NCBI GenBank assembly: GCA_019096065.1
Contig: JAGUCH010000009.1
Location: 1,312,001 to 1,376,000 of the forward strand
From: Paracyclopina nana
Lineage: Eukaryota; Arthropoda; Copepoda; Cyclopoida; Cyclopettidae
Direction of reading: 5' to 3'
DNA: 64,000 nucleotides
Under the pieces are notes generated by a model. It was given only the letters and a program-made list of their open reading frames with translations, was not told the DNA's origin and made no database searches. The position numbers were made by a program, and so were the translations under genes. Below are positions 6,056-48,700 of this stretch, piece by piece (position 1 is the first letter of the stretch; the number at the start of each line of letters is the position of its first letter).

Positions 6056-6734
6056 CTGCAAAAACAACAACAAACGACTTGAAATCATCACTCCTGCCAG
6101 AGATTAGATAACGGACATCGCGACAACTCTTGAATCCACGCGCTCGGAATAAGTGGTGTAAACAAAGCAGCGAAATTCCGTCAAATGACGGGAGGTCACA
6201 GCTAACCTGGGCGGACTCGAGTAGCTTTAGCGGAAAAAGCAATTATTGGCAAAAATGACTCACTTTGTCACAAAGCCGCGTCGATGTGTTCCCAGATGCA
6301 AATTTCAAGTCCTCAGGTACCGGTGAGGCTGCGAAAAAATCGAGGCCGCCCAATTCGACCTCAAGCAGCTTGCGCTCACAATTAAGACGTAAACAGATCT
6401 GACAAGAGAAGAAGCTGTTAAATGTCGCCGATGATGATTGCTAACATCTTTCTTCAATTCACTCGAGTTATTCAACTTTGCCTCTATCTTTGAAAAGGCT
6501 TTATGGCCATACGATTACTTTAAAAGCCAAAATGGGCTGTTTTTCATTGAATGGAGGCTAGCTCTGGAAACGCTGCCACTTTAAAGCTTGGTGGGCGTAG
6601 TGAGAGGTTGCTGACGGAAACTAACAATAAGTTGCGCGCTTCAAGAATACAAATGTTGCGAAATCGCAACGTAAAGCCGTGAACAGTAAGCAAGGCAGAA
6701 AAATTTGACGCGGCGACTTTTCACAGTGTGCAGA
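6056..6734. promoter_or_regulatory. Putative bidirectional promoter region of Rab35 and VPS72
   Basis: The only space between two divergent housekeeping-type genes. It must hold the Rab35 5' UTR exon or exons and both start sites. I see no repeats in it and cannot place the start sites. Confidence 0.45.
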
Positions 6735-18100: not shown

Positions 18101-21100
18101 GAAACTCACAATTTTTGTCCAAGACATCAATGATAATGCTCCTGCCTTTGACAAAGTTAGATATGAAGTTTCACTGCCTGAAAACCAACTGCAGGGCACT
18201 CCAGTTCTGACCATCAATGCTCAAGACAAGGATAGCGGAAAAAATGGAAGGATAACTTACACTATTTCACCAAATCCCTACTTAAGCATACTACCAAATA
18301 GTGGAGTGCTCATTTTCAATGGTCAGTTGAACAAGGAAATCAATCCAACTTTGGAACTGACAGTGACAGCTACAGACAATGGGGTTCCTGCAAGGAAAGC
18401 ATCTGCTCCAGTGAAAGTGAATATCTCAGATAAGACTGACACCACACCAAAATTCCACAGGCCTAAATATTTGTTCAGAACAATTGAAAATCTCCCCAAA
18501 GGCACTTTGGTAGGCTCTGTAGAGGCAACGGTCAATGATGATGAAAATTCCATTGAATACAGGTTTAGGACACCCTCTACCAAATTTGAGATTGGCCACA
18601 ATACAGGTAATGAATTACATGGGATTTCCTTCATATCTTAAACATGTATCAACTTTTAGGAGAAATTAAAATACTTGAAAGGCTTGACAGGGAAGAAATG
18701 GACTCATATGAGCTTCTAGTGGAAGCTTTAGATCAGAATTCCAGCCTAAGGAAATCTGCTCAAACTTTGGTTAAGATAACTGTGGATGATGTCAATGATG
18801 AGCCTCCTAAATTGGAAGCTCCAGCCAATAGGATGGTGTATGTGTCCAAAACTGTGAACTCTCCTTCCTTAGTTGTTGCCACAATCAAGGCAACTGATAA
18901 AGACAAAAATGATGCCTTAACCTACAGTATATCAGGTTTGTGCGCTATCTAATTTACATGTAAATTTGAATGTTCTTAATAGTTGAGCTTATCTATAGGG
19001 GGAGAAAATGCACTCATCATTGACAAGTGGACTGGTGAGCTCAAATTAACAAGTAAAGAAGCTGCTGCACTAAGGTCTTCAAATATGACTATTACTGTTA
19101 AGATATCTGACTCAGCCAAGCCAGTTCCCAACAGCTTGACAGAAGATATTAGCATATTCTTCATTGATGAAACATCTAATGAGCTCCTCTCAAAAATTAC
19201 TCAAACAATCAATGTCAGCAAAGATGTCAATCTTGGATCAATAGTGGGCAATATCAACTCAGCTCTTTCCACAACTATTGAGAGGAAGGTTTTCATCAGC
19301 CAAGCCAAGAGCAGACAACATTTCCCATTCTTAATTAATGCAGCCACAGGAGAAGTAGTGACAATATCTCTTTTGAACTCCACTACTAATGGGCATTTTG
19401 AATGTGAAGTTGTGGTGCAAGACATGTCTGGAGCAATTCCACCGATTCATGTGCAAGTTGTAATCAAAGTGTCTGAGGAAAATCAATCAGAAAGACCTCA
19501 TTTTGAAGAGAACCCCATAAAAATCAGCGTTCCTGAGGGCTTGCAGTTAGGAGAAGTTGTTTACACAATGTCACCTATTACATCAAATCCATTGAGACAA
19601 TTGACATTTACCCTACTTGAGCAATTGCCTCATGAAGTTTTTGTCATAGAAGATGGGACTGGACGCATAATGCTGTCCAAAGTTTTGGATTATGAGAAAG
19701 ATCCGAGTTACATTGTGACAGTTCGAGTGACAGAGAAAAGATCCCAGTTATCATCATTTGTGACTCTTATTGTTTCTGTGCAAGACACCAATGACAATGA
19801 GCCTCAGATTCTTTCCAGTGGAGAACTTAGGCTTCCCTCTGATCCCCTCCTCAATTCACCGATTATGAGGATTATAGCCACTGACAAAGACTTTGGCGAG
19901 AATGGGAAGCTTGAGTTTAGCATTGTGAGTGGCAATGATGATGGTGCCTTTTTGCTCAATGCACACTCAGGAGATCTTTTCCTTATGAAACCAGCCTTGA
20001 AGGACTATTATTTGAGGATACGAGCTCAAGACTTTGGCACTCCAAGACATTTCAGTGACAAAGAGTTGCATGTAATAGCCACTCAAAATAAGTTGGGTCA
20101 GCCAAAATTTGCACAATCAACCATGATTCTTAATGTGCAAGAAAACTTACCCCCAGGGACACCTGTATCAGCATTGAAAACTCTAAATGGAGACAGCATC
20201 AGCTTAGATTATGAGCTATTGGTGGGTGGAGACAAGTTTAGCATTGAGCAATCAAGTGGTCAACTTAAGACTCTAGCTGAGTTAGACAGAGAAGAGCAAC
20301 AATCGTATTCACTAGTTGTCAGTGTGTCTGATCAGAGGTATCCTGATCAAAGTGATACAGCTATTGTGAATGTCTATATAGAAGATGTAAATGACAATGA
20401 TCCCACATTTGGAGCAACCTGCAGAGACTTAAAGATACCAGAAAACGCAATGGAACAGTATATTCACACTTTTATTGCATTTGATGAAGATGCAGGAGAC
20501 AATGGACAAGTCACTTACAAGCTCACAAACTCACAAACAACATTTATGCTGAATGCAGACTCTGGCCAACTCACAGCCCCTCCACTTGATAGGGAGTCAA
20601 AGGGCAAGTTTGAACTGGAAATTATTGCTGAAGACCATGGAACAGGCCAAGTAAGGTCAGCTAGTTGTACCATCACTGTCACTGTTCTAGATGAGAATGA
20701 CAATGAGCCAAGCTTCACCCAGTCTATATATTCAGCATCTGTCAAAGAAGATGTCCCTCTGGGCACAGAGGTCCTCAAGGTTCATGCCACAGATTCTGAT
20801 CTGGGAGACAATGCAGCCATTGAGTACTCTATTGAGAATGCCACCTTTAGTGCATTTGCTATTGACAAGGATTCAGGAGCTATCAGTACAACAGACATTC
20901 TAGATAGAGAGACAATTGATGAGTACACCTTTACTGTTTTGGCTGTTGATGGGGGCAAAGGATTGGTAAAGTCTAGCAGAGCTGTTGTTACAATCCTTAT
21001 CACAGATGCTAATGACCATGCCCCTCAATTTGCTGAGTTTCCATTTAAGATCAACATCACAGCAACTCCACCAGTTGGTGCTCCCCTCTTAAGACTGTCT

Positions 21101-24100
21101 GCAAATGATCCAGATCTTGGAGCCCATAGTCAACTGACTTTTAACCTAGTTCGGCCAGAGCAAAGAGCTCTGTTCGATCTCAGTGCTAATGAAGGAATCC
21201 TCACCATTCAGAAGAGTGACATATCTTGGGAACCTGGTACAGTCCAAACCTTGGAAGTCTCAGTGAGTGATGCAGGCAGTCCTCCTAGGAGCTCAACTGG
21301 ATTGGTTGAGGTATCCATTGAAGGTGGACCAGCTATCACTTTGACTTTTCAGCAAAATACCTACCATTCAGAGTTGGCTGAAAATCCTGCCAGTGGAGAA
21401 GATGTGGCAAAAGTTCATGCAGTGAGATCAGATGGAAGGAGGCAAAGAGTCATTTACACCTTTCTCAGAGGAAATGAAGACGGTGGCTTTGAAATCAACA
21501 GTAACAATGGTCTTATCAGAGTTAGAGATCCTGAGGTTATCGATTTTGAGAAGCACAGACAATTCATCTTGACAATTCAAGCCCAGGGGCTTGGAGAAGA
21601 GAGTGACCTCAATGCATACACAACTTGCATTATTACAATCAAAGATAGGAATGATAATGCCCCAACATTCACCCAAGCAATATACAGGGCCAGAGTAATT
21701 GAGGGGCTCAGCAAGAACAGCCTTATAACAACTGTGGCTGCATTTGATATGGACTATGAACAATCTGGAGACATTACCTATGAGATTGTTGGAGGCAATG
21801 TTGATGAAGCATTCTATATGGGAACAGCCCAGCCAGGAGTCATACTTACAAATACCGTGTTGGATAGAGAAGTGCGTGACTCCTATGAGTTGACAATTGC
21901 GGCCAAGGACAATGGTTCTCCACCTCTTTTGGGTAGCTGTCAGGTCATCATCAGGGTTATAGACTCAAATGATTCGCCACTGCAGTTCCCTGCCTTCCCA
22001 CCATTTCGAATTGCCCAGGACTTGCCAGCAGGTTCTCTGATAGCAACCATCAGAGCTCATGATATTGACCTACAGTCAGATGTGGCATACTCAATCAAGG
22101 ATGGTGCCGATTCAGATAAAGTTGCCCTTACAACCTTCACAGGACAGATGTACCTTCAAAAGTCGCCATTAGCTTGGAGTGAAAATGAGATCAATGTTGA
22201 AGTGGAGGCCTTTGATGGGAAATTCAAAGCATCACAATCAGTGAAGATATTCTATGACAGAGGAGGCAAAGATTGCCATCCAAAATTTGAGCAATCATTG
22301 TACAGATTTCAGCTCTCCTCCAATGCTACATTTCCAACTAGCATTGGTGACATTGCTGCCATTTCCTGCGGAAGCAATGACAATCTCATGTACTCTATGT
22401 TATCCTCAGGGGTTGTCTCAGTTGTGGCCAACAATGGGACACTTGTTGTTAACCAAGCACTGCTCTCTAACAGCTCTAAATTCATAGTTCAAGTTCAGGA
22501 CAGAAGATCAAAGCAATCATCAACTGCAGTTGTTGTTGTTGAGACCAGAGCAATCCTGGAGGAACCATTAGAATTTGACTTGCCGACAGACACTTTTGAG
22601 ATTGGGGGCTCACTAAAAGTTTTCAAGGCTAACCTGAAATCCATTCCTGCTGAGCCTGTGGTATTTAACATAAGCAGAAATGCATTTGTGACCATTGACT
22701 CATCAACCGGAGATGTCTACAGGTTATCCAACATTGAATCATCATCAGGGAATGAAAATGCTGTGTTATCTGTCAGGAGAATGAGTGATGATGCTTCAAG
22801 TGGCATCAAAAAGACTGTAAGATTCTTTTTACCACCATCACAGTTGAGAAGTGCAGCAGCCAAAACCAAGGAAAAGAAAGTTGAGCTGTCAATCCTCAGT
22901 CCTTTAAGCACCAAGGTTAGCATTTGTGATGTTGAGGCTCCTTCTATCGCTCAAATACTCTCTGGAAATGATGACAACTTGTTCACCTTGGACACCACAA
23001 AACAGTTCCTTGTCCTCACCAAATTACCACAAGCAGCTGTTAAGACAACCTTGGTTGTGAGAATGGGAGGTCTAAGCGAAATCACAATTTGCTCTGTATC
23101 AGTGACATTCAAAGAGGCAATTGAGAGTGACCATGAAGAAAATCAAGCCAACAAAATCTTTCCTATTGATACATTTGTCACTAGTGTTCCTGAGGACTCA
23201 TTGGTTGGCACTTCTTTCTTTGAAATTCCTGTTGGCTCATTGAGCAATGATCTGTCCTTTTGGTCAGAATCAAGTGTTTTTGAGGTCAATCCCATGGCTC
23301 CTGTGATTTCAGTGAATGCTCCCTTGGACTTTGAATCTGAGCCCACTCATAACATTGTGATTTTTGCCAAGGAGCAAGTCACCAATAAGCAATTCTCATG
23401 TAACATCCAGATCATGATTGAAAGTGTTGATGAGTTCCAACCAGTATTCAGCCAAGATGTGTACACCTTCAACATTCCAAACAATGCTGGACCTGGTTAC
23501 CAGTTGGGATCAGTAAGAGCTAATGATGCAGATTCAGGACCTGATGGTTTTGTCAGTTATTCTGTCAGCCCACTGAACCCATACTTTGATGTTGACCACA
23601 AAACTGGAGCTGTCTCACTGAGGAGGCAATTGGATACTGGTGTTCTGAAGCAGACAGTCAGGAGGAGGAGATCATTGCAAGAAATTCAGATGACAGTAGT
23701 ATCAAAAAGTCTCAAGCCAGACTCACTTTCATCCTCAGCAAAGATTGTGCTCTACCTTGAAGATGCTTTGCTCCCAATTGCTGCCTCAACTGAGTCTGAC
23801 TCTGGTGTGGCACCTTGGATACAAGGTGTATTGGTTGGACTAGCATTGATCCTTGGACTTCTAGCATTTGGTGCAGTGTATCACTGCAGAAAAGTGAGAG
23901 ATGCAAAGCAGGCCCAGAAAATAGCCCTTTTGCCAAGTCCTCCGTCTGGGGGCATTGTGAACACCTCATCATCAACATACTCAGGAGATCAGACCTTGGA
24001 AATGGTAGGAGTGGGGTCTAGATATCCTCCTCAATATAGTGAAATCATGTCTGACTTTGATAGAGCCAATTCTTCAACAGTTACTTCCAAGCCTGTCACT

Positions 24101-24910
24101 AGGTCAGAGTTGTCAGAGAAGTCACATCGTTCAGCTTCAAGTGGAAGAGGCTCAGTTGAGGACTGCGATGAGGATGCTGATGTGGAAATCAGAATGATCA
24201 ATGAAGGCAACTGGAACATCCCTTGTTCAACTTCTCAAATGTCAGGATCTCACCACTATGAAGGTGATGATAGGATAAGCCAAGGATCAGTGCAAAACAC
24301 AGAAGAGTACTTGGCCAGGCTGGGTATTGACATTAGAAAGCCACCAAATGTCAAAATACAAATGTCTGAGGACCCCTACTCTAGGGCTGGGGGAGCTGGC
24401 TCAATCTACAACCGAATTGGTGATGACGCCATGAGTGAACACAACTCAACGATTAGTGCCAAACCCCATAGTTTGCTCTATGGATCAACTGGGAGGCAGT
24501 TGTCAATGACTGGTTCTCTCAGCTCTATAGTTCATAGTGAAGAAGAGCTGGCTGGAAGCTACAATTGGGACTACCTATTAGACTGGTGTCCTCAATACCA
24601 AAATTTAGCTCATGTCTTTAAAGAGATCTCCAAGCTGAAGGATGATGACCCTGGTGATGCCCAAAACAAGAGAGTGCTGAATGCTTTTGCCAACATTAAG
24701 AACCCTTCCATAGGTCGCAATAGGTTGATTCCTGTGAGAAGCACCCAGTCTCCAATAGCTCAAGACATGTTATCCCAAAATGCATTGTCTCCAAGTTTTC
24801 ACCCTTCATTGTCACCACTAGCCACAAAGTCTCCTTCAGTCTCTCCAATGTCAGTTCCCCTCAAGAGAGATATTGGACCACCTCGAATAGGAAGAGGGCC
24901 CCTCCAATAA
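15149..24910 (+). CDS. ds: Dachsous protocadherin
   Basis: Giant cadherin of planar cell polarity and Hippo growth control, the trans ligand of Fat at the cell surface. Five exons (15149-15798, 15904-16685, 16747-18606, 18660-18935, 18999-24910) join in phase to 3,159 residues. Signal peptide MLLRFLAVLALATASLAQ. Roughly 25 cadherin repeats follow, marked by recurring LDRE and DxNDNAP motifs (for example LDVNDNAPDF, QDINDNAPAF, KDRNDNAPTF). One transmembrane helix lies near residue 2797 (GVLVGLALILGLLAFGAVY), followed by a cytoplasmic tail of about 340 residues. The tail holds the Dachsous-diagnostic block SYNWDYLLDWCPQYQNLAHV. An RRRR site lies about 50 residues outside the membrane. The fly protein is somewhat longer, about 3,500 residues as I recall. 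AATAAA at 24961. Confidence 0.95.
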
Positions 24911-30757: not shown

Positions 30758-33700
30758 TTAGAAGGTGATCTCAAGGTATCTCTTGAGGGATCGCTCAATG
30801 TTGAGCATGTGACCCACCCGGATGACTCCCAAGGATTCCAGCTCTGATTTGGTCAAGCCAGCCAATTTCAGCCCGTCCACATCAGCTTGAATAAAAGCAG
30901 GCTTGTATTCGGGTAGGAAGAGCGAGTCTAACCAGTCGCAGACATCATGGATGCTCCAGCCCATGAGGGGTTTGTTCCGGAAGCTTTTGGCAGAGTTGGC
31001 AGCCAAAAGCTGCTTCTTGGACATCGTCCCATAGAATCCGGAATAGTCCATCGACTTGCTCATCACGTCATTGGCATTGATCAAGCCCTGCACCGATTGG
31101 TCCAAGAAGCCCTCAACGCTCCTGGTCATGTTCCAATGCTGGTGGTGGTGGTGATTATGATGATGATGGCTTCCCTGATATTCCTGCTTCAGCTTGGCCT
31201 TGTGGTGGCCTTTCTTGGCCTTTTGGAAGCCTTTGCTGCCGTTGCTTGACAAAGACTCGTTATCGGAGTAGGAATCCGGATCGGAGAATCCAGGAGGCGG
31301 AGCCAACACTGTATTGGTAGTGGCCTCATTGCCAAGGCTGCTGACATGCTGGTTAATCAAGGCCAGACTCTCTGAAATGCTTCTCTCATCACTGATCATG
31401 GCCTTTTTGCTACCATTGCTATTGTTGGCCTTTGGCCTATGCGGCAAAGTTTGGCTGCTATAGCTGCGGCCTGAAGGTGGCATGTCGAAGATTGCTTGCA
31501 ATTTGGGATGCAACATTTGCTTCATGCTGACAAACTTCTGGGGATCAGGCTCAGAAGACTCTGAGCTCTCACTGTCATATGACTTCTTCTTGGGGTGATT
31601 GGATAACTGCACAGTGGAGGAAGGCACTGAGCTTTCCACGGGGAGATAGGTGACAAATTTGGTTGTTGTGGTGACATTGGATTTGGCATTGTTTTTGGTC
31701 TCCTGGTCGGAGGACACTCCAGAGCTGGAGTTGTCATTGTCATTCAACTCATTGGGAAATGACCTGGATGGCTTCAATGCTGAACGAGCATTGAGGATAT
31801 CGGTTTCGCTGATGCCACTTGATGTCGACATCTTTTGGCCCTGATGACCTCCTGGAGGGACTTGCTGCTGAGTCAGTCTGGTCAAGACCTTGTCAGCACA
31901 AAAGCTCTGGGACTTTTGCAAACTCAACGAAGAAGAAGAAGAAGCATGATTTGTGGAGGAGGACACCACAGAGCTGTTGGACCTGTTCAAATTGCCGCTG
32001 CTCGTGCTTGGCACTTCAATCCGGATTTTGTCCTCCTCCGGCACGACCTTGACGACAGTTCGAATCGGTTCCATCGAGGGCTTCAGCCTTGGGATCCTCT
32101 CAATGGGCTGCATGTACTTTTCCCCAACCAAAACTGGCTGCTGCTGTCTCAAAATGGGCTTTCCATGAAGGCAGTGAGTGGGTGGAGATGGCTCCTTCAG
32201 AATCGACTCTGGCTGCTTCTTCGAGCCACTGCTATTAATTTTCTTGACAGAAGCTTCCTCCTTCCTGGAGATGTCCTCCACAAAACTTACGGATTTTTTC
32301 TTCTTCCTCTCAAGGGTCTTTGAGCCTTGACAGTCATCATAGTCAGGCTCGGGAATCAGCGGCACCACTCCTCCCTCTTCGGCGGGTTCATTTGGCAACT
32401 CATCCGGAGTCAGGGGGGACCTGAAGGTGGTGTAGGTGGTGTAGTTGATGCCATTGATGGAGTAAGTTTCCTTGGTGGACTCCTGAGTCACCTTTTTCAA
32501 CACTTGTGGCCTTGATGGCCTTGGGGGCATTGAATTGGCCCTGGAGGGGGGAGATCTCTGCTTGAACATTGGGTGGTGATCATTGTTATTGTTGAGACTT
32601 TCTGGCTGCTTCAGATCCTGGCTTCTGGGCTCAGGCTGAGAGTAGTCAGGGGAATCTGGCTTGAAACTGGACATCACTGGTGAAGTCACATTGGCTGGTG
32701 CCTTCTCTGGAGACTTGACCATCATGACCTCAGATTTCACCACTGGAGGTGGAGGTGGGGCATGCTCTGGAGGTGGGAACTTCTTCAGCTTCCCAGTTCT
32801 CCCTGGCAGAGTGAAATAGCCTCTGTTGGCACTCACTTTCCCATCATCAGTGAAGTGGTGCAGGTCAATGAGGTCAATGTCAGTCTTGGCCTTAAGCTCT
32901 TCAAGGGGTAAGAGGGGCACAGTAGCATTGGTGGAGGAGGTCTTCAGGTCTGGTGTGGAGCTGAACCCCTTTTTGAGGCCGCCACTACTTGAGTCAGGAC
33001 TAGAGCTTGGTGGTTTCTGGTTATCCGTAGATTTTGACTTCATTGACGCGTGCAGCTGGAAAAGAAAGCAAATCTTGGCGTAACGCAACATCAACATTTC
33101 AGTATATCTGCTCACCTTCATTCGCTTTATTTCTGACACACTGGCATACACCTTATTATTGGCATTCCTCTCAGCTGAGGAGGAGCTCTCCACCACCAAA
33201 TCTGGCATTCGCTGCACCGAGTCGACCGAACCAGTGACTGATTCGCTTGTGCTCGAGTCATGCTCATTGATTGCTTTGTCCAAGGCCTCGAGGGCAGCCA
33301 TATTGGCCACCATGGATCTTGCCCTGGCCCTGCCCACACTGAGTGTGGTGCTTGGATCTCTTTTGGGTGGTGGTGGCGGTTGAATGGCAGAGGAGCTCCT
33401 ATTGTTGCCACCGTGAAGCTTTCTGGGCAATGTGGAATACTGCCTGGGGTTATTGTTATTATTGGGAGTTGGTGGCAAGCTCAGCAAGGCTGCTGAAGGC
33501 TGCTGAGCAAGGTCAAAGGCTATGGTGACAACAGACAACTTGACCAGGTCACCAGATTTCCTGATGAGTGCGACCACAGTTTCGTGGCTGGCCTGCCTCA
33601 CATCTTCGCCATTGATCTGGAAGTAATTTCAATTTCAGAGTCTGATGCTTGAAAAAAATTGCAATTTCAGTACCTCGAGCAGAAAATCCCCCTTGCGAAT

Positions 33701-36700
33701 GCCAGCCATGTCGGCTACTCCCCCGGGATCCACGTCGTCCATATACTGAAGACCTGGACATCTGTCAGATGGAACCATTTCCATAAGTGGAGAGGCTGCT
33801 TTAGCTCCACGCAGCACAAAGCCAAAGCCTTTTTTGCCCTTGTGCAATACTGCAGTCCTTGGCTCGCCAATAACGCTGCAATACATAAACTGTGTAGTAG
33901 TAACTTTCTACCCAAAATACAATCAGGAAATCACGGTTTGCACATATTGAGTCTGATACAGAAGATATCAGGCTAGGAACTGTTTTTTTTCAAAATACTA
34001 CATGGAGGAGAAAAGGTCTGAAAGGACTGTTATAGTAGAAATGTAGTGAAAGTTAGTATGGAATTTTCTGAATCACCCTCTAAGCAAATCCTGCTGCTTC
34101 GCAAATAATGGGATTTCTCTGTAAAAACGAAAAGGGGCCACGGCCGCAAAAACCACGGCGGAGAACTCTTTAAACTTTGCTATACTTTTAGTCTACTTTG
34201 CCAGAAATTTTGCCTGAAGGAAGTTGGAAGACTTTTGTCAATGTCAGGCAACTATTGATCGGGGCATGGCCCCGACAAAAATGGTAATATAATCAGATAT
34301 AAAATTGGGCAGTTGTCAAAAAAACTGACCAAGGATGGTCCTAGACTGCTTAAGGGCTACTCACACAAAAAAGTCGGGGAAAAACGATTCCCTGGACCTT
34401 TTTCACTTAAAGCCAACATAAAAAATATAGGAAAAACTTAACTTTTTCTAATTGAATTCAAACTTTGCAGACTAATATCCCGTTCATGTGCAAAGTTGCT
34501 TTCGGAAAGTAAAAAATTGTCATAAGGCAAAGGAGTTTTGCTATCAAACCACTTAAGAAGGGCTTCTCAACTAGTTGAACCAGGAATCGAGTTCACAAAT
34601 TTAGGGCAAAATTCAGAAAAACTTTGATTATTTCAGCTGTATCGTAGATGCAATAACTCTGCAATTTTTGAGTTGATTCATATGAATTTGTATGATTCAG
34701 AAGTAACCACTTTGGCACTGATATTGAAATAAGCTTTGTGAGTGTTTACTTTTCAATAGTCTTAAAATTGACCCGTTTCTTTCCGAAGTGTTGGCATCAG
34801 CATAAGTTTACTTTTGTGCTTGTCATACGACAATTTTTTTCCTTTCGGTAAGGCGTTCGGCGTGCATTATCGTATGGAATTTGGGGGCACATGAACGGGA
34901 TATTATTGTCTGTCAACTGGCAATGGAGACTTTGGATTATAGAAAAATGAAATAAAAATGGTCAAAATGAAATTATGACTTACATGGAATCTTTGGCCCT
35001 TTGGGCAGTAGCAAAATGCCTTTGTTGATTTGCTAGTGCAGAAGACACGTTATTATCATTTCTTGGGGCTGTGGTAATGGCTTGCTTCACTGAATTGGGA
35101 TTTCGCAGCCTCACTTCTTGGACACAGTGGACTGGAAAAAAGCCTTTTTTGCCACGCAGGATACCTTCCAGCATGTTCGAGCTGTCCTCTGTGCCAGTCA
35201 CTGAAAAAGAGGGAGAGCAAAAAATTCAATTTCATTACTGCAGTCGCAATTCCTACATTTCACATATATAGTACTACTATATATTTTTGGTTAATGCTTT
35301 TTATGGAGCATTTAAAAATTCTCCTTGGCCAAAAAGCCCCCAAGGGATCAATTAGGGGCTGGAAAATGCGGCATTCCACCAGGCTTGGCAAGGATGGTAA
35401 TTTTGGATGTACTGTAAAAAGTCCGCGATGTGAAATGTCCAGATAAAAAAAGTCCGGTTGCAAAAAGTCCAGATACTATAAGTCCGATCATATAAAGACC
35501 AGATATCAAAAGTCCTTTTTCCAATTAAATAATCATTTGAGGTATTAGATTGCAAAAGATTCTATTAAATCTTTAATGAAGATCTATGAAGCCATAAGAC
35601 TTGAATGCATGAAAAGGCTGACCCAAAAAAACTAGCTTTTTACTAATTATTAGTTTATTAATCCCCGCTACCATTCAATAACCCAACTCGAACTTTGATA
35701 GAACTTTGAAAAATTGATTCTATACGCAGTTGTTCTAAGGTTGCTTTCATAACTTTATGGTATCCTGGACTTGTTCTTTAAATTGAACAATTTTGTGCTT
35801 TCTGAGATAGCCATGTACATAACATGAAAACAATAGTTATTTATTTCGAGCTGGGCAGGGTCATTAAATAGCTGACCTCGGATTTTAAAATGGAAAAACA
35901 CTCGTACAATTACAGTCCTCGCAGGCTCGGGCTAGTAAAGCTGTAATCAAGTTATCCCATTTTTACGTCCTGTTTTAAGTCCTATACATAGCATGTCATT
36001 TTCATGATGTTTCCATAGCTCAGAGTATTGGAATGCTGATCCAAAAGTCTGAGGTTCAAACCTAGGATGATCCTCTCTTTTTTCTAACTTCTTTGGAATT
36101 TGGATTAGTTCCATGGAATATGTGTAAATCTGATCACTGTAATCTCGACTCGATGAACTGATAAAAATAAACGTCGCACGAATAAAAGAGCACTCTAAAG
36201 GGATCTTTGGGTCAGATCGTTTATTTTGACGACCGCCATGCATAAAATCCGATAAAGTACTAAAGTAAACAAACGAATGACAGATCGAAAAGTGAGTCCA
36301 GCCAGATAGAATCACACAACCTCGCCGGGAGGCAAACAGTCCCCTCTGGGAGTCTATCAGGTGGACCAGACTACTCGAACCTTCTCAGAGGCTTGATCGC
36401 GCCATATCGTTGAATCACCAGAATTTTGCCGTTCCTGTCCATCTGCCGGACAGCCATCACATGCACGAATGGGGCGACGCGCTCGCCCGCGAAGAGCTGG
36501 ACCAGATCATGGTCCTGGTGGTGGCCAGCATTGTGACCGCGCCCTCCACAGCTCATGCACCTTTCTAACACTTGTGGGCACACTTTTGACGCGTGGCCAT
36601 CCCGGCCACAGTATGGGAGCGTGCACGTAGGTAGCTCCAAGCAGTCAGATGCGTCGTGCTCAAACTCGCCACAAATGAGGCACGCGTGAGGGTACTTGAT

Positions 36701-39700
36701 GATCTTGCGGTTCTTCTTGGCTGTCGTAGTCACTCGTCCAACAGCCCCATCCATGACAGCGGCCCCATGAAGGTCAACCAAGGACGCTTCAAGGTCGCTC
36801 TCCAAGGACTGAACTGCCGAATTGGACAAGTGAGGAAAAAAACTTCTCGAGATCGGCCAAAGGAGCTCCAGACTCCTCAACTTCTTCATCACATGCTCCC
36901 GCGAGTTGAACAGTCTCGACTCGACTCTCAGCACGTCTAGGGGCACTTCGGGCTCGTCCAACAGGCCTCGAAACTCCACTCGAGGCTGCGTGCCAAACTT
37001 CAGGGGCACGTTTTCGTAGAGGGCCAGCAATGCCAACACGTACGGGTACAAGTTGTCGCCATCTTGCAGCCCCTCGCACTCAGCCACACGGCAGGCAGCT
37101 TTGAACACTCCCGCCATCGGGGCAAACTGATCAATTCTATCGTAGTAGATTGTTGAGTCAGAGTATTCATCCACGAATCCGCCATATGGGTTTTCGCGCG
37201 CCCATTTTGGGAAGCGCACTGAGTGTTGAACCCCGAGCAACCTGAGCATCTCCTCTTTGCCGACATTGGCGGACGGCCTCAACAGCTTGATGATGTGACC
37301 GACATCAACCCAAGATCGAACGTTGATCCCCATCAGCTGAAATCTCTTCAAGTCTCCATCCACTCCAAAGCCCAGCTTGAACACGCTTCTGGACTCAAGC
37401 AGGTCGACAATTCGCTGAGGCAGCTTTCGGCCGACAAAAGTTGGGCCCACGAAGCCCACTCGCGTGCCAAATGCGATGCCATTTGGGGCTCCCATGTGCA
37501 CATACGACGTCATGTTGTTGAACTCGTCCACCGTGGGGGGAAACTTCTTGGCGTACGCAACCTTGTGCGATTGATGGAAGCCTTCACAGTCGACCGTCAT
37601 CATTCTTGCTTTCTCAATGCACTCGAAAAATTCTTCCAGCTCCAGGGCATGCTCTATCTCTGGAAAACTATTAGAAGAGTACATATTGTCTTTTTTAGTT
37701 AGACCATAAATATACACCGATCGAATCTTAGGTGATTCCAAGTCATATGGTGTGCCTTTTGCCATGGATGCCAATCGACGAGCCTCCTTGACGGTGACAA
37801 CCAAGGCCACCGTCATGGACTTGTCCGTGGTTTCCACCAGGTCAAATTCCCTCCGGATGGCACAACCCAAGTGATGACACTTCCGCTCTTGCTCACTCGT
37901 CATATCATAAACTTTGCCGGCCTCCAGCTCCGGGCATTCATAAGTCTTCGTATACTTGCGCAAATATTTCTCGTCTTCGTCCATGGGCGTGACTGACGTA
38001 CTCAGCTTGGAGACGTCCTTCAGCTGGGAGCCTCGAAAGTCAGCCATGATTTCATCCTCCATTCCAGCCGGGATGACCACTGGCGTGGACGTCGTTGGCC
38101 TGGGCGCGGCCTCCGTCCTTTCTTCTGTCTGACAAGCAATTGTGATGAGCTCTGCCACTCCTGCTGCCTGACAAGCGACTGAGATTAGCTCCACCTTCGC
38201 TGGGGCTGCCTCCATGTCCACATCGACATCTTCCAGGACAACTCGTCTATTTTTGTCCATTCCGGGTTGAACTCCACTGGGGCCAGGACAACCAAGGTCC
38301 TGGCCTTGATGGGGTGCAACCCCGCTCATTTCAGGGTCGGCCTCGGTTTGACATCGCTTATGATGGACAACTTTCATTCGAACTTCCAGCGCCGGTGCGT
38401 TGATCGCTTCCAGCGTGTCCTTCAAGGCCTTCACAAATTGGTCGTTGTGTTCTCTTGTGACTATTGGCAGCTTTTTGAAGACGGAGAGTTGCTCCATTTC
38501 GTCGATTGACAGACTCGTTCTCATTTGGTCGATCATGATGACGTCCGCTACATCGCCCTCCTTGTACAACTTGTACATTTTCGGTACAACGTGCATGCCC
38601 ATTCCAGCTTCCATTGCCTGGAGGACTCCTTTTTCCCATGCTGGATCCGACATCGAGTCTTTGATGTACTGGCCGAGAGCTCTCGCCGCCATCCAACATC
38701 TGGTCATCGTCGCCTTGTCGGGCAGCTCCTCCAGCTCCGGGTCGGGCTGCTCCTTGTACATCCGCATGATGTCCACGAACTGATTGCCGTAAGAGAACAT
38801 GTACGTTTCCATGAGCGACATACCTCTGGAGCGACAGATAAGCGCTCTATAAGCTCTCCACTCGTCCATGCGTCGCATTTTCCTCCTTCTTTCGGCCGGC
38901 CTCGAATCGTCTGGCAACTTCTCGCCCCAGTTGTACTGGTCGCCGATGAGCAGAATTTCTGGGTCCTTAAAGACCTCAAAAAAGGCGTCTCTTCTGCTGA
39001 CATCGTTGTTGGTGTACCAATGAAGCCGTCGAAATCCCGTAGCTCGCATGATTTCCGCCGCGTGATCAATTTGGCGCTCCGACGTGAAAGCGGCCATTCC
39101 ATGTTTCGGCTTCGTCTCGCTGGGTTCCTCTCCGGTATTTGCGATGGTGATCCTCAAGTCCTCTGAAGAGTCCCTCGAACAACCAGGGTTCGTGGAGACT
39201 CTCCTCTTCTTCCTTTCGTCGTCCTCGCCACTGCTGCCGGATCTTTTCTTGTCCGCCATTTTCACTTTTTTGCACTGTTGTGTTTTGACGAGAAAATTCG
39301 GCGCACTTTTATTATTATTGGCGCGCTTCTTGCTGAGCCGCCGCTCAGCTTCACTGTTGGTCAGCGCTACCAGACACTTCATGTTATGACAGCGCTACCA
39401 GATGTTTTCCAGTCTTTTTCTGTTTCACTTTCTTCTCTGTGGTGTAAAGTCTTTTTCTTGGTGTCGACGAGTTGTGCTATCACTTTTTTTTTTTTTTTAG
39501 GCTAAATCAATGTGCGGAAATTCCGCTACTGGAATCACGTCTCTGATTCCTCTCTCGAACACACTCTTCTTCTGTTGCACAATTACTCGTCTCACCAATC
39601 CATCAGCACTTCTTTGCACTTTTAGCACCTTTGCTAGCTTCCACTGATGTCTTTTGACATTGAGGTCTTCTTCAGCCACCACAACCAAGTCGCCCTCTTT

Positions 39701-42700
39701 AATTTTTGCGTTGTACTTCGTCTTGAATTTGCACCTATCGTGCATGCTCTGTAAAAAGTAATCACACCAGCTCTTCTCGAATTTGGCCATTCTTTCGGCC
39801 AATTCGTGTACACTAAATCCAAGTTCATGATCTTGGGAGAAAATTCCCGCGTCACCCAACCTCCCAACTAAAAGGTGGTTGGGTGTTAAAACCAGCTTTT
39901 CGTCGTTGTCTTGTTTGATCACGGCTATAGGTCTTGAGTTAACGACATTCTCTGCTTGCGCGACCCAGGTTCTGTACACTTCGAGGTCCACTTCACCTCT
40001 GTCCACATTGTCTTGAATTGCATTCTTCGCCAATTTCACAAACGACTCAATTTGTCCATTTGCTTCGTGGTCTCTTTGGCGACAGAGTCCACTTTCGCAC
40101 ATATTTTGCTGTTTGCATCTGGAGCTTTTCCCAGTCAATCTGCTCCACTTCGTGCTTCAAGTCTTGTGGCTTGACTTCTTTTTCGAGCAACCTCTTTGCC
40201 ATTTTGAAGCTCCCTCCATTGTCTGAGAATGCCTCCTCAATTGGACCTCTTCTTGCCGCAATCCTCGTCAATGCTAAAATTAGGTCCTCTGTGTTCATTC
40301 CCATCGTGATTTCCAAGGTTACTACCTTTGTGCTCAGGCACACAGCCACTAGCACGTACACTGGGATTCTTTTACGCCTGAACTTGACCCATTGTGCACC
40401 CGTATAATCCAGCGCTATTTTCGCGCATGGTCTCAGGTTGGTCAGATCTACTTTCGAGATTCCGCCCATCAATTGTTTTGGCATCTTCGCGTGATTCCTT
40501 GTACACCTGCTGCACTCCCTTGACACCTTGTATGCTGCCTTCTTCACTCCAGGGCCTGCAATCTCCTTCGACACTCTGTGCCAAAGATTGTCATACCTTA
40601 TGTGATTTTCCAGGAGATGCACACTCCACACATATAGTGTGAATGGCCAGGTGTCTGCCATCAGTACTGGATTGATTCTTGATCCTGCCAAGTCCTGCTT
40701 GTACAATCTCGTGCAAATCCTTAGCAGGCCGTCACTATCCATCATCAGCGTGTGCTTGTCTTGCAATGTCATCTTCCATTTTCCTGTTTTTTCGAAGTGT
40801 AGGATTTCTTTCTCCCACTTGAGCCACTGTGCGTAGATTAGCACTCTTCTCACAACTTCTGACAGAATCTCCTCCGGAATCACAAATTCCACTTCCAATT
40901 TCCTGCTCTTCGCGACAATCCTTGCCATGGCTCTAATCATTGTTGACCACCTGCTTGCCATCCGGAGGCTCACGATCTTCTTCATTTGTTGGAACACTAC
41001 ATGGCTCCCCTGGACAGCATTCATGCCGCCTTCGACAACTTCATGAGGTTGGATCATGGCCAGCTGATTCACCGCTATTTTGCGGGGACAACCAAGGTCC
41101 TCGCCAAGCAATGTGATCTCACCTGACCCTAGCAGTTCTTCTTCTAGGACTTTTATGTCCGTGAGCTTCCACTGGTCTTGCGCTTCTTTGAAGAATTCTG
41201 GTCCCTCCCAGTAATTCTTGTGATCCTTCAGCTGGTCTCCAGTGCAGCCTCTCGTTGGAAGGTCGGCTGAGTTCTCAGCTGTAGCTATATGATTCCAGTG
41301 TTCCATCAAGGTCGTGTCCGCAATCTCAATGACTCTGTTGCGTACAAAGACACATCTTTCTACTCCTGGCTTTCTTATCCAGTAAATGACGGGTTTGTTG
41401 TCTACCCAGTACCAGACGTTTTCTCGTTTGATGCCAAAGAGTCTGATGAGTCTGTTGGACAGTCTGGCACTCAGCAACGTGCCCGCCAACTCCACTTCCG
41501 GAATCGATCTCTGTCGAACTCCTTGGATCCTCGCTTTTGTGGTCAGCCACCTTGGTTGTGGCTGGCTTCCTCTTTGACTAATGTAAGCGACTGTTGCGAA
41601 GGCTAAATCCGATCCGTCACTACACATGTGTAGGATTGTATCCTCGTTGATCTCTGCTGCTACTTTCCTGGGATAGCTCACACTCGTCATCTGGTTGAAC
41701 TCCTTTTGCCATTGTTTCCACAACTTGACTGCTTCTTTGGCATCCTTGCTATCGACTTTTGACAAATCCTCATCCCACGAGATTTTTTTCTCTTTGTCAG
41801 CCTTGTGTGCGAGCTGCAGCGCTTTCCTTGCTTTCAATAGGCATGGAGCCAGCGCCCCCAATGGGTCGAAGACTGATGGTATTTGGCTTGCCATAATTCG
41901 CTTCGTCACTACATCCTGGTTATGTTTTGACAATTGGTACCCGATTTGATCAGTGACTGGGTCCCACTTAAGTCCCAGTGTCGAGTGAATTCGTGTCTCC
42001 ATTTCTTCTTCAACCACCATCGCTTTTCCTCTTCTTTCTGCCGGAACTTTTTCCAGAACTTCCTTGTCATTTGAGACAAACTTTCTTAACTCCATTCCAA
42101 TTTCGCTCATTAGTGGTATAAGTTCCTCGATGACCTTCTTTGCAGTGTCCTTGGCCTTGAAGGCCACGATCACATCGTCCATGTAGATGTTAACAGTGTC
42201 CTGAAGGAGCTTGGAGCCTCTGGCCTTTATATGGGACTTCACCACGAAATTTGCCACTGATGGTGCGGCTCTTAGGCCAAAAGGCCACCTACAGAATTGG
42301 TACTGTTTGCCGTTGATGATGATCCTCACGTATTTTCTGTCCTTTTCCGGCAAGGCTATCATGAGATACATTTTCTCTATGTCGGCCACAACTGCAATGT
42401 CTCCCACTCTGAACTTGAGCATCGTGTCAAATATGTCCTCCAGGTAATTGGGTCCTGTGTACATCTGCTCGTTTATAGAGGTGCCATCAAACTTCTGCTT
42501 TGCGTTATACACGAATCTGTACTTGGTGGTTTCGCTCGTGTGTCTTGCTACGCAGAATACTGGCAGAAAGTAGCCTTTTCCCAGCTCATGCTTTGGCACT
42601 GGTTCAATGATGCCTAATGCCAGATATTCTTCAAACGTGGATCCTATTGCTGCCATGACTCCTGGGTCTGCGGCATGTTTCTTGTCGAGGCTGCGTTGTA

Positions 42701-45700
42701 TGGCTGCGCACTGGGTGAAATTGTCCGGTAGATCTGGGATGTCTTTCACAAAGGGGATGGCCACCTCCACATGACCTGAGGGCAACAGCCTCATCGATGA
42801 CTTCATCTTGATTAGTGCCATCTCTTCTGCCAAATTCAGTCTCTTGATTGGCTCCTCTTTTTTGTCGATGCCGATGGACTCGAGTCCGTACTGCCTGTCA
42901 AGCATGTATCTGAATTCTGACTCGGTCATTGCTGATTGGTTGAACGTTTTCCAGTCATCCACGAGGAGAGTACTCTCTTCTCCTGTCGATCCTGGGTAGT
43001 TCAAGATTGACCATCCCAATGGTGTCTTTCTTGCTAGTGGTCCATTCTTGACCACCACATCCTGTTCGCTACTCATCAAGATCGTGTTATTGAATCCAAT
43101 CAGGAGGCCAACCCCTCCTGCTTCTGGAACTGGGAAGTCAATCTTTTCCAGTTCCGAGTGTAACTTTGAATTCATTTGGGTTGATCGGCTTAATGGAGAC
43201 CGGTAAGTCGAACGTGCTGAACTTCAGTTCATACACCTGGTTCTTGTCGTTCTTGGCTCTGATGTAGATGACGCCCTCTTGGGATGGTTGCGTGATCGAT
43301 TTGTCTCCGACCACTTTTACGGTGAGAGGCTTTCTTTTACCCTTAAAGCCGAGGCTTTTTGCTAGCGAAGGCTTCAGCAGTGTTGCACTCGATCCGGCGT
43401 CAATCAGTGCATTTGTTGAGACTGTTTTTTCGAACATTGCGTCAACTGAGATCTCTACTGGTACCGTGAGCCAGGATCTCGTTGCATTTGCTGCCAAAGG
43501 ATCACATCTTCCTTTCCATCTCCGTTGTCAGGACAACCAAGGTCCTGACTCAGAAGTGTTGTCTCAGACAGCTTTGTCATTAGTTTAGTCATTGATGCCA
43601 AAAGCTCCTTCATGTCTTCTTTGCCGGTCTTCTTGGATTCTTCTTCTTTGGGCTTCGATCTGTGGATTTTCGTGTGGTGACTTGTTGATCCACAGACATC
43701 GCAATGCGATTGTCTCTTGCAGTCAGCTAACGTGTGCTTTCCTTGGAGACATCTCGGGCAGATCTTGGCATCCTCAATCACCTTAATGATGTCTTGAAGC
43801 TTGAACAAACTCCATTCTGGGCACTCACAGCATCTGTGTCCAGATTTTTTGCACAACAGGCAGATGGTCTTTCCACTGACTAGGTTGACACATTCTTCGT
43901 CTTGGTCTTGACATCCAAAGTCATACCACCCACCGCGGCCTTGGTTGTCGCAGTGGGCCACCACTTCTTGCTCGTAGCCTTGGTACTGAGGTTCTCCAGG
44001 CGTTGCACTTGGCTGATTGTGGTCCCACCAGTAAACTTCTTCATCACCATAAGGATCCTCGTATCTGGTGGGGTACTCATCTTGCCACACATAGTAAGAT
44101 TGCTCTCTTCTGCCTCCAAAGAATGGCCTCCTTGCTCTGCCTCTGTAGCCTCCGCCTCTATAGCCTCTGGTTGGCTGGCTTGGCTCTGCCGCTTGTGGGG
44201 GTGGCACGAGGCCGTAGTTCTGACCTCCTCCTCTGTGGTAGTTCCTGTCATGCATCTTGTTGATATCTTCGACCACTGTGCAGACTTTTCTGCTTCTCTG
44301 AATCTCTCTGATTCGAGTCCTGGCCCACGTTATGAACAACCTCAGCGAGTTGCGTGATTGCATTTTCTGTTCCTTGAACCTCTCGTAGTCCCTTCTGGCA
44401 TTGACTTGAACTGAATGTTGCTCAGTATTGACTGTTCGCCGTCTAGGGCATCTCTTCCTCCTCGCCCATTGCAATCGATAATTTCTTCCACTAGGGCTAG
44501 CGTGGTTTCCAGTGTCGCGAGATTTCTCATATTTATTGGTATCATTTTCGTGAGCTGTGCAGACAAGTCATGCACCATTTCTTCAGCTTCGCCTGGGTGC
44601 CCAAGGTATGTCGCATCTAGATTTTCCAGTGCGCTGACCAAACCTTCGAAGTCCAAAGTACACCGCCTAACTGCAAACTTAGCTCCTCCTGTGCACAGGT
44701 ATTTGAGCTTGGAAATCTTCTCAAACCAACTCATGTTCTTTTTCTTGATGATGGCTGCGTGCACGTATTCCTTGAAATCTCTGTATGCTCCTGTATTCGC
44801 CCCATCAAAGAACATCGGTTTCACGTCGTCTCTCGAGTTGGTGTCTTTCGGCAGACTTGGATCATAATATCTGTGGAGGTTTCTTCTTTGCATGATGTCC
44901 GCCCAGCACACATCCGCAGTCTTCCTTCTTCTGACTTGCTCGATGACTGTGTGCTGATCCAGAAATTCCTCCTCTTTGGTCAGTTTCTCCTTATACTTTT
45001 CTTCTGTCAGGTGAACTGCTGGGACTCCAAGCTGCAGCATCTTCATGTCTTCTTCCATCCTCGGAGCGTAGTTGTTTTCTTGAGTCCCCCCGTCCATGGT
45101 TGGCGGGGGTGGCTCTACTTGCCCTCTTGTTCCGGTGGGGAATGTTGACACAATATTCTCAGCTTCCTTGTTCCCTATCACTATGCACTGCCTGTTAATG
45201 GGGAAGTCTTCGCTATCTGGCATTGCCATGAGTTGCTCACTAACTTCCACTCTTCTCTTGTTGACAGTCCTCATCATGTTGACTTGCTGGGTCGCTTCCA
45301 TAGACCCCGCTCTGAGCTTTCTAAGCTCCCTGTCAGCACTCTTTAATTGGGCAACTAGCGAAAAAAACTCACCGTTTAACGCGATGGCTCGGTCCACTCC
45401 CGATTCCTCGGTGTCATTCTCTTGCTGAGCTGGCTGAGTTGACTGTTGCGTCTGCACTTTTTCTTCTGGTCTGTTGGAGGCAGCGGCAACTAAAGCCTCT
45501 GCCTCCGATGAGACTCCCAGGACCATGATGCTTCTGGCTTTTGCGCTGGCTTTCATCACTAGCCCCACAAGCTTTTGATTCATGGCTCTCATTTCTACCC
45601 CGAATTCCTCTCTGTCTCCTTGAGTCACTAGAGAGTCCAGCACAATTGCGTCACTCTTCAGGGTTTCAATGAGGTTGCTGAATCCGTTGCGGACGCACTC

Positions 45701-48700
45701 AACTGCTCCAGTTTTTGTCGCTGCTTTGAGACTGTCCTCAAGCCTCGTAATGTCACTTTCGAGGCTCGCTTTTGCTGAAGCCCAGGCTTCCTTCCATGGA
45801 GCCATGCCTGCATGTGTTGGATCTACAGCTGTCATCATGTGCACACTGTTTGTCTCATCACCAAGCATCGTCGAGTCGCTATATCTGAGATCTAGCTCCG
45901 TTGTTGCCGTGTCCAGGACGCTGGTGCTTGCATTTTCCACTATGTCCGGGTGTCCCGCTATGCAGACTGACTGATCACTCGAAATCCTGGCTTTGAAGTC
46001 AGCTATTCGCTTGCTGACTTCATTTTGCCTTGCGCTCTCGATGTCGCTAGCTCGGTCTGCCACAGTCGATGTGCTCCTCGCTTCTTTTATTTCGTGTTCG
46101 TAGTCTCCCGACGTCAGCCTTACATTTCTGATCGGGTTGTGTCTGAGACCGTACTTTTTGGTGGTCTCCTTGGACATCCGCTCCTCTGTCCCCTCGTTTG
46201 CGCTTCGTGGGACAATATTGTCCCCCCGTTCGCAAACTCCTTCAGCTCGTCAGCAACAGCTGACTCCGATGGCCGCCGGCTCCTCGATAAGCTTGACTCT
46301 TGATCACTCACGGTGTGGAACTGATAACGTTGGTCGCCATGTAAATCTGATCACTGTAATCTCGACTCGATGAACTGATAAAAATAAACGTCGCACGAAT
46401 AAAAGAGCACTCTAAAGGGATCTTTGGGTCAGATCGTTTATTTTGACGACCGCCATGCATAAAATCCGATAAAGTACTAAAGTAAACAAACGAATGACAG
46501 ATCGAAAAGTGAGTCCAGCCAGATAGAATCACACAACCTCGCCGGGAGGCAAACAATATGAGGGGCATTAAATTACTTAAAATCCCTCAAATTTGATTCC
46601 AGGGCCATTAAAAGTATGTAATATCCCCCAAATTCCTTAGAAAGATCTGTGGTTTAAAAGAGCTGAGTCGGATCGGTAAACTGAATTATAACACTAGGAA
46701 ATCATATTACAGTATATAAAACCATTTCGTTTCATTTCATTTCTTTGATATTGAAACTTGATTGTAATGCGCATGGGTGCTTTGCTCTTTTCTGTATTTG
46801 TTCTATGGAGCAAAGAAACACCTTTTTGAGAAGTTATGGCATTTTATGAAAAGCTTTATTAAACTAACATGAAACTAACATGCAAAAAACAATAATTTTA
46901 GAACTTTTTTCAGTTACTAAAGATTATTTAGATGGCTTATATGATCATCTCTGTCATCTATAATAGTCAGAAATAGTCTTAGTATTAGTAAAGTGTACTT
47001 TTTACATCAGGACTTTTTACATTAGGACTTCATATATTAGGAGTTTTTACATGATGATTTTATATATCAGGACTTTTGACATTGCGGACTTTTTACAGTA
47101 TTCCCGTAATTTTGCATTTACTTTGTTGGTGGAATGATGAAGATTCATTCTTGCTCCTCGAGAATAAGGACACAATTTGCATCAGCAGAAGGTAATGGCA
47201 TTTGTGTGTACTACGCTATGCACTTTTCCTCTCAAGCTCTAGTACATAGTGAGGGGAAAGCAGGGAAATCACTCAAACACATGAAATTGCAAAACTTGTG
47301 CTTCTTTCCAGCCTCCCTTGGTTTTTTGCTTGGTGGGGAGGACTAATGGTCATTTTTTTTCCTTATTGGCTCTCGATGTATTTCTGGCTTCTTCCCACAT
47401 CATGATGATGTGGGCCAAATAAGTTGCCCATACATAATAGATTTCATGGCTAAAGAGGAAACCGTTTACTTAGAAAGCAAGTTGTTGTGGTGGATTTGTG
47501 TATCGGTTTTCCAAGCTTCAAAGATGTTGCTGTATTTTAGAAAGGATTTCATGCCTTTCTTTGATGCATCAAACAGATACATTTTATACAGGAAATCAAG
47601 GCATAAATACAGCATTTGTCCAAAACCTGAAACCTGTATCTTCTAAATGCCATTATTTCAGTTTGGCTTAACGTTAGCAAAATAGAAAGCGTAGGATTGA
47701 GTCTCATTACTGAGCAGATTGGTTTTGAGCCAAAAAATGGCATGAAGATACATCCATGAAAATATCGTAAAATAACAGTAAAAAACCTTGCCTTCAATGA
47801 TGTCTCCTTGAGTTATATGTAGGCCATTAGGATGATTGGGATTTGAAAAGTTTTCGAGGCAAACAACATGCATCCCTGGCAGGATTAAAGATGGCGGATG
47901 GCTCTCAGTTGGAGTTGTGGAGCTACCCGCTGACCCAGAATGAGACGAAGTTCCAACTCCTGAGCTCAGAGACTCGGACTCCACCAGGGAATCTGCAAAT
48001 AGTAGCAAAGTAGTAGCACAAAGTAGTCAATTAATATGCCCAGCCACTTCCACACTATAAAATATGGACAAGATGGGCATACTCTAGTAGCTAATAAGGA
48101 AAATACGATTGCACAGTGGGTTTATTTGCCGATTTCACGCGCACGGAAAAAAGTCGCGAAATCAACGTAGCACCTTTTCTTATTGGTTGTAAGCTAAAAA
48201 TATTCCATCCCGGCACCCGGGAGAGCAAGTAAGAGCAGCTAATTCTGGTGGATTATCAATTTATGCTATTAGCTTGACTTCCCTGACTTGGTCACTCAAT
48301 TTGAGTTGTTTTAAATCAAAAGTTATGGGAGATTCAATTTTTTCTCAAATTGTGCATAGTTGCTGTTCTACTGAATTTGCCAAAATCAACTTTTGCCCAA
48401 AAATTATGTTTCCTTCATCAAATTTGAATCTTTATCTGTCAATAAACATTAATTTGTGCTCTTTAGATAGCCTAGAAGTCATACAAATACGAAACTAAAA
48501 AAGGGTGCTAAAATCGGAAATCTGCGATTTGACGTAATTTCTCGTGCGCGTAAAATCGGCTTTTTGATCCACTGTGGATTGGCAAAGTCAATAAAAATCT
48601 TGCAGTTAAGAATTACTTTTCACACCAATTTCAGTTTTGGGAACTGAAAACCAAATTGAAGTCTCATTAAAGTGCCAATTGTATTGAGGCCAAAACTTGG

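Follow-up and report, generated by a model that had tools for sequence, protein, structure and literature searches.

An exonuclease-like, zinc-knuckle ORF in the env position of a BEL/Pao retrotransposon lineage of Paracyclopina nana

The element and its exonuclease-like ORF

The window analysed here is a 64,000-nucleotide stretch of the genome of the copepod Paracyclopina nana (contig JAGUCH010000009.1, positions 1,312,001 to 1,376,000), which harbours a BEL/Pao long terminal repeat (LTR) retrotransposon on the minus strand (window positions 36123-46555). Besides gag- and pol-like genes, this element carries a 1003-residue open reading frame (ORF), P0001, located 3′ of pol in the position of env. 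The predicted protein combines the active-site residues of a DEDDy 3′-5′ exonuclease with three C-terminal zinc knuckles, and its homologues accompany one BEL/Pao clade throughout the genome. The features of the element are as follows (aa, amino acids).

46556..46560, second copy 36118-36122, no strand: target-site duplication ATATG (flanking letters)
46340..46555, minus strand: 5′ LTR, 216 bp, 100% identical to 36123-36338, TG...CA ends
44342..46177, minus strand: gag-like ORF, 611 aa, DUF1759 match with E = 0.0035, below the cut-off (ORF and domain match)
40047..43175, minus strand: pol ORF, 1042 aa, with RVT_1, Peptidase_A17 (Pao), integrase H2C2 and part of rve (domain matches)
39497..40138, minus strand: integrase C-terminal ORF, DUF5641, E = 2.3e-14 (domain match)
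39390..39402, minus strand: TCTGGTAGCGCTG copy 1, immediately 5′ of the exonuclease ORF, possible motif of an internal promoter (motif search)
39362..39374, minus strand: TCTGGTAGCGCTG copy 2 (motif search)
36371..39382, minus strand: exonuclease-like zinc-knuckle ORF P0001, 1003 aa, ATG at 39382, stop at 36373-36371, no internal stop
39257..39259, minus strand: Met42 of P0001, probable true start
38333..39037, minus strand: conserved N-terminal domain, residues 116-350, of no known family (alignment of 23 ORFs)
37862..37936, minus strand: invariant Cys cluster C483...C502...C507 (alignment)
36983..37705, minus strand: DEDDy exonuclease domain, residues 560-800, with D598, E600, D677, Y747 and D751 (alignment, profile, BLASTP)
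36518..36682, minus strand: three zinc knuckles, residues 901-955 (alignment)
36123..36338, minus strand: 3′ LTR, 216 bp, pair of 46340-46555

The two LTRs are 100% identical over 216 bp each, terminate in TG...CA and are flanked on both sides by ATATG, and this LTR pair with its 5-bp duplication is that of a BEL/Pao LTR element. The domain order within the single pol ORF is also that of BEL/Pao, with PF00078 followed by PF05380 (E = 4.1e-27) and PF00665 (below the cut-off; the H2C2 and rve matches of this ORF both fell below it). PF05380 and/or PF03564 were present in 99 of 100 protein-database matches of the window pol. Along the minus strand, the gag-like ORF is followed by reverse transcriptase (RT), Pao peptidase A17, integrase, DUF5641, the exonuclease-like ORF and the 3′ LTR.

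A preliminary description of this DNA had placed a long intact ORF after integrase, in the env position of a complete BEL/Pao element. Both the uninterrupted ORF, which lies on the minus strand, and its position 3′ of RT, the Pao peptidase, integrase and DUF5641 were borne out. Completeness held for the LTRs, the duplication and the domains, but the gag and pol frames of the window copy are interrupted; the element is structurally complete, yet its pol is not intact. In two siblings whose pol is 99-100% identical, gag-pol is open, with frames of 2252 and 1946 aa.

P0001 stops 32 bases short of the 3′ LTR. For comparison, 23 ORFs of the family were aligned, excluding near-identical, broken and unfetched copies, with some rows cut at the 5′ end. 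Met42 is probably the true start, with Met in 18 of the 23 rows including P0001; four of the five rows lacking it do not extend that far. Within the N-terminal domain, residues 254-346 gave a HEPN_Swt1 match of only E = 0.1, below the cut-off. The exonuclease motifs of P0001 read MMTVDCEG (residues 594-601), GFGVDGDLKRF (671-681) and Y747-D-R-I-D751, the third being an addition to the two in the preliminary description. The knuckles are C901-X2-C-X4-H-X4-C, C920-X4-C-X4-H-X4-C and C942-X2-C-X4-H-X4-H, and all 12 ligands are invariant in the 23 aligned copies, although the spacing in the second knuckle is C-X2-C in four of them. Thus, the three CCHC-like knuckles initially noted at the end of the ORF are indeed present, the third being CCHH.

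Conservation and spread of the ORF

The five putative catalytic residues (D598, E600, D677, Y747 and D751) do not vary in any of the 23 aligned copies, which share 26-72% identity with P0001. Such invariance across diverged copies excludes a chance motif match. In a regular-expression check of 34 of the 39 clade loci, 33 showed all three motifs, in some cases within a broken frame, and the decayed copy L031 lacks motif I. The Pfam family PF01612 (3′-5′ exonuclease) matched 15 of the 23 members at E ≤ 1 (best 9.9e-5), with its curated cut-off passed by four family loci (L009, L011, L013, and L014 only with neighbours in frame). The DEDDy pattern named in the preliminary description, with both of its motifs, was therefore confirmed by the invariant active site and the Pfam profile. 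By residues and profile together, the members of the family are predicted DEDDy 3′-5′ exonucleases. In seven of seven pairs, whole-ORF dN (nonsynonymous divergence) was 0.08-0.21 and dS (synonymous divergence) was at least 1.3 or saturated, so that dN/dS ratios are rough. Constraint is among the strongest in the exonuclease and N-terminal domains. Judged by these substitution rates, the ORF is under purifying selection.

The genome searched comprises 92 Mb in 10 contigs; the ORF and pol searches covered the best 46 of 249 and 44 of 369 candidates, respectively, so all counts are lower bounds. P0001 gave at least 61 matches (25-100% identity per matched piece), merging into at least 39 loci on 9 contigs, and the ORF is accordingly a stable lineage feature, as had been thought possible, not absent from other copies of the element. 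The pol search gave at least 46 matches, merged by hand into at least 42 loci. The pol of one BEL clade lies 5′ of the ORF at 38 of 39 loci, the ORF locus C7:2730082 having no pol among the matches listed. Conversely, the ORF follows pol on the 3′ side at 38 of 38 pol loci with 45-100% identity, at a spacing of 12-2360 bp in 36 pairs and of 6.2 and 10.0 kb in two less certain ones.

Over 15 elements, distances in the pol C-terminus and in the ORF agree closely (Mantel r = 0.96, 0 of 9999 permutations). The ORF has been passed down together with the element. The pol and ORF trees concur in their deep branches and differ in order inside the closest group of the window element, where support in the pol tree is weak. 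The end repeats of two further elements, 219 and 308 bp long, are both 100% identical, indicating that the lineage moved recently. Two copies of one element type, at a distance of about 10.7 kb from each other and in the same orientation (C9:5656965 and C9:5667630), have very similar ORFs, L049 and L050.

In a protein database search that requires shared 5-residue words, neither the exonuclease part of P0001 nor the family profile found a match at E ≤ 0.01 (0 among 7993 and 0 among 7997 scored candidates, respectively). The pol control recovered 100 relatives from the same database, several of them from named animals, so the database does include animal proteins. In viral contigs, 13 pattern matches were seen and none was confirmed.

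Within the 10-kb stretches read, a short gap separates the ORF from gag-pol, or the two overlap slightly (L056). Kin of TCTGGTAGCGCTG occur at the same place in several subfamilies and not in others. Its 12-mer core, CTGGYARCGCTG, occurs 366 times genome-wide compared with 3 for the reversed control (about 120-fold), and is perhaps a host promoter motif. The motif is similar to DMv2 (TGGYAACR), a core-promoter motif of Drosophila, as given in the available part of PMC1779564, and positions 6563-6575 of the window, 5′ of the YL1 ORF, hold a near-match. When up to two mismatches are allowed, however, the 6 occurrences in the window compare with 3.64 expected, so there is no enrichment. That an internal promoter drives the exonuclease-like ORF is a guess.

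Host genes with long uninterrupted frames occupy positions 6705-8804, 16845-24910 and 30758-33601 of the window, comprising YL1/VPS72 (699 aa), two cadherin frames (598 and 1975 aa) and a SAM-domain protein (947 aa). Elsewhere in the genome, a short CCCTAA/TTAGGG array near a contig end (C8:8704-8787) is the sole place found with four exact repeats.

Host DEDDy relatives and the sister BEL group

Six host DEDDy genes were recovered from the same genome, and kinship of the family with EXD2 was judged within this set. EXOSC10, Egalitarian and EXD2 were named from Pfam and PDB matches (EXD2 from PDB 6k17, E = 1.2e-19). Two further genes are, in our reading, EXD1 and EXD3/mut-7-like, the latter compared as two pieces; L007 carries no name, and no WRN was recognised in the host. 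The family profile aligned significantly only with EXD2 (E = 3.9e-9). The other host genes gave E ≥ 0.019, including 0.028 for the presumed EXD1 and ≥0.29 for the EXD3/mut-7-like pieces, and shuffled or reversed controls gave E ≥ 0.066. Single-sequence profiles link few host DEDDy genes to one another, so that the lack of a match to EXD1 or EXD3 carries little weight.

BLASTP of P0001 against host EXD2 (E = 4e-8) covered residues 522-799, aligned the three motifs and extended to a common tail, VPLKF/VPFKF. Against a small database, matches at E ≤ 1e-3 were always with EXD2, and 0 of 200 shuffled EXD2 sequences reached this threshold (best shuffle E = 0.035). EXD2 is thus, by sequence comparison, the nearest of the host DEDDy genes tested, being the best match over the whole domain and the C-terminal tail. 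It differs from the family in having, by BLASTP, no significant counterpart of the N-terminal domain, the Cys cluster or the knuckles, and in a hydrophobic stretch near its start. The kinship with Nibbler, mut-7 and EXD1 suggested in the preliminary description did not hold up, within the limited sensitivity of the comparison. The small-RNA argument built on it is weakened, because the nearest host gene is EXD2. In the available sections of PMC9859823, EXD2 is reported to act on mRNA and DNA and to digest mRNA in vitro; the kinship would therefore point to mRNA and DNA as targets.

Four pol loci at 28-33% identity had no ORF match in the P0001 search. The 3′ DNA of two of them contains homologous frames, L059 (at least 1213 aa) and L060 (at least 1185 aa), whose relationship to the family is supported by BLASTP (L059, E = 2e-9) and by the profile (E = 7e-13 and 3e-11 for L059 and L060). 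Reading this pol group as lacking the gene was therefore wrong at L059 and L060, where tblastn had missed a diverged homologue. At C4:3040662 and C9:3496196 neither genome search gave an ORF match, their 3′ DNA itself being unread. The family member L056 and the sister ORF L059 have in common a stretch around DPxxxILGxxLNFGPR in the N-terminal half.

A genome search with one sister ORF yielded at least 66 matches (best 38 of 417 candidates), merged by eye into at least 36 loci. In a comparison with 69 peptidase A17 matches, taken from the 150 listed, 36 of 36 sister loci had such a match 2.1-3.7 kb 5′ of the ORF, while the remaining 33 of the 69, and most of the 150, had no ORF among the matches listed. 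BEL/Pao elements are abundant in this genome: the best 150 of 243 Peptidase_A17 candidates all exceeded the cut-off, many in long open frames.

Six sister loci were read over the exonuclease region, where the alignment is uncertain in places. D598 and D751 are replaced in all six, and E600 is kept in one, D677 in two and Y747 in four. These patterns suggest that catalysis was retained in one branch and dispensed with in another. Loss of the active site is the likelier direction, since EXD2 and the active clade have the same five residues.

Proposed role and known counterparts

The interpretation starts from what was observed directly: the env position of the ORF, its clade-wide conservation, the invariant active site, purifying selection, EXD2 as the nearest host gene tested, and the missing active site in the sister copies read. 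On this basis we consider it moderately probable that P0001 represents a second gene of a BEL/Pao lineage, encoding an EXD2-related DEDDy 3′-5′ exonuclease with three knuckles that works in the ribonucleoprotein (RNP) of the element. By analogy with TbRND, the RNase D of Trypanosoma brucei and the best model for the working of this protein, the knuckles would hold single-stranded RNA while its 3′ end enters a two-metal active site. The protein would be made apart from gag-pol, perhaps via an internal promoter, and its main target would be nucleic acid of the element's own RNP (3′ ends of genomic RNA or cDNA) and not host small RNAs. The sister-group protein would be an RNA binder only.

Several observations weigh against this explanation. 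PF01612 did not match P0001 itself or, in total, 8 of the 23 members. Only 3 of 23 ORFs reached E ≤ 1e-3 with EXD2 in BLASTP, and the hhalign E-values of single members against EXD2 are uneven, from 2.6e-7 (P0001) to 0.079 (L019). An AlphaFold2 model of the window ORF, built from its single sequence, had a mean pLDDT (predicted local distance difference test) of 30.8, too low to inform on the fold. A complete active site is kept in 0 of 6 sister copies read, and L059 and L060, the only pair tested, differ mainly at silent sites, which indicates constraint; therefore, catalysis is not needed from this gene by every element. That the target is nucleic acid of the element itself (RNA or cDNA) rather than host RNA is a judgement and the weakest step.

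The gene might instead, as the preliminary description proposed, counter silencing, the enzyme trimming or destroying host small RNAs aimed at the element; we regard this as unlikely. Nucleases acting on single-stranded 3′ ends would suit the ends of small RNAs, and the ORF was retained across the lineage. However, the 3′ ends of animal PIWI-interacting RNAs (piRNAs) are usually 2′-O-methylated, which hinders such enzymes, the nearest relative is EXD2 and not Nibbler, mut-7 or EXD1 (subject to the limited sensitivity noted above), and the sister copies read manage without catalysis. A link to silencing, as with mut-7, though a self-limiting one, was raised for bdelloid rotifer elements in the available sections of Rodriguez, Kenefick and Arkhipova (2017, PMC5408684).

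Slightly less credible still is a non-catalytic protein in all lineages, a nucleocapsid-like second RNP protein in which the exonuclease fold serves as a scaffold. This would fit the sister group, where L059 and L060 retain the ORF and knuckles 2 and 3 although the active site is intact in none of the copies read. It would also fit the resemblance of the knuckles to those of nucleocapsid and LIN28, and the description of EXD1 and Maelstrom as inactive RNA-binding DEDD proteins (PMC5408684, in the text available). In the window clade, however, the invariance of five catalytic residues in 23 of 23 copies is hard to explain without catalysis.

An env-like entry or membrane protein, suggested by the position of the ORF and by hydropathy, is very improbable. 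The 19-residue Kyte-Doolittle maxima range from 0.87 to 1.82 over the 23 copies and L059, with 1.82 for P0001 (at residue 399) and 1.72 for L036, but they occur at differing positions, in P0001 within an unconserved linker, and the protein is built like a nucleic-acid binder. Chance capture or an assembly artefact in one copy, for which the interrupted pol frame might have spoken, is refuted by at least 39 constrained loci on 9 contigs that were inherited with pol.

Beyond the exonuclease proposed for the window clade, we tentatively raise a broader scenario, which we hold to be possible rather than probable. The gene would be ancestral to a large BEL/Pao radiation and would have split into a catalytic and a pseudo-exonuclease branch, an element-borne counterpart of the way in which exonucleases of small-RNA and RNA-decay pathways in hosts come in active and inactive pairs. 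The two branches would survive side by side in a single genome, both expressed as RNP proteins and both occupying the place that env has in infectious relatives. Ever since the rotifer paper of 2017, the role of enzymatic third ORFs (ORF3s) in retrotransposons has been a standing question. An active site retained over deep divergence in one clade and missing from sister copies inside the same genome provides a ready contrast on what catalysis buys, and this split makes the purpose of the gene testable.

The top PDB matches of the family profile, obtained via the knuckles, were TbRND (E = 0.0027), LIN28 (0.0029) and retroviral Gag (0.0093). TbRND (PDB 7c42) is an RNase D-type exonuclease followed, as in our family, by C-terminal CCHC knuckles. 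In the available part of PMC7797062 its fingers are described as binding RNA and increasing cleavage, and its authors call the combination of an exonuclease domain with CCHC fingers very unusual. TbRND differs in being a cellular enzyme that trims guide RNA, has four fingers and is not borne by an element, and the common domain order may have arisen independently. For the sister ORFs, EXD1 and Maelstrom offer an analogy as proteins with an exonuclease fold and no catalytic residues, but they are host genes of the piRNA pathway, and the presumed host EXD1 did not align significantly with the family.

The closest precedent comes from bdelloid rotifers, in which DEDDy-type ORF3s are known in the LTR elements Juno and Vesta and in the Penelope-like Athena elements (PMC5408684, from which the following details are taken as far as its available text goes). 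These are likewise extra ORFs 3′ of pol with a DEDDy-type domain, and Vesta2 and Vesta5 also have a Cys-His-Cys motif. The bdelloid DEDDy motif is altered (a DEED change), and the extra ORFs were reported to evolve intragenomically without significant departure from neutrality. The LTR clades covered are Juno, Vesta, TelKA and Mag, with BEL/Pao not among them. The earlier statement that no such gene is known in BEL elements thus stands in part: our literature search found no report of BEL/Pao elements with an exonuclease ORF, and the word "exonuclease" occurs 0 times in the available text of PMC3118150, but DEDDy ORF3s of other LTR retrotransposons were published in 2017. What is new is BEL/Pao as a carrier, which adds this class to those with a DEDDy exonuclease gene, together with the depth of conservation, the EXD2 kinship and the active/inactive split. 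Compared with the bdelloid ORF3s as described, the BEL/Pao ORF is distinguished by catalytic residues kept through deep divergence, kinship with EXD2, three invariant knuckles and a sister group without the active site.

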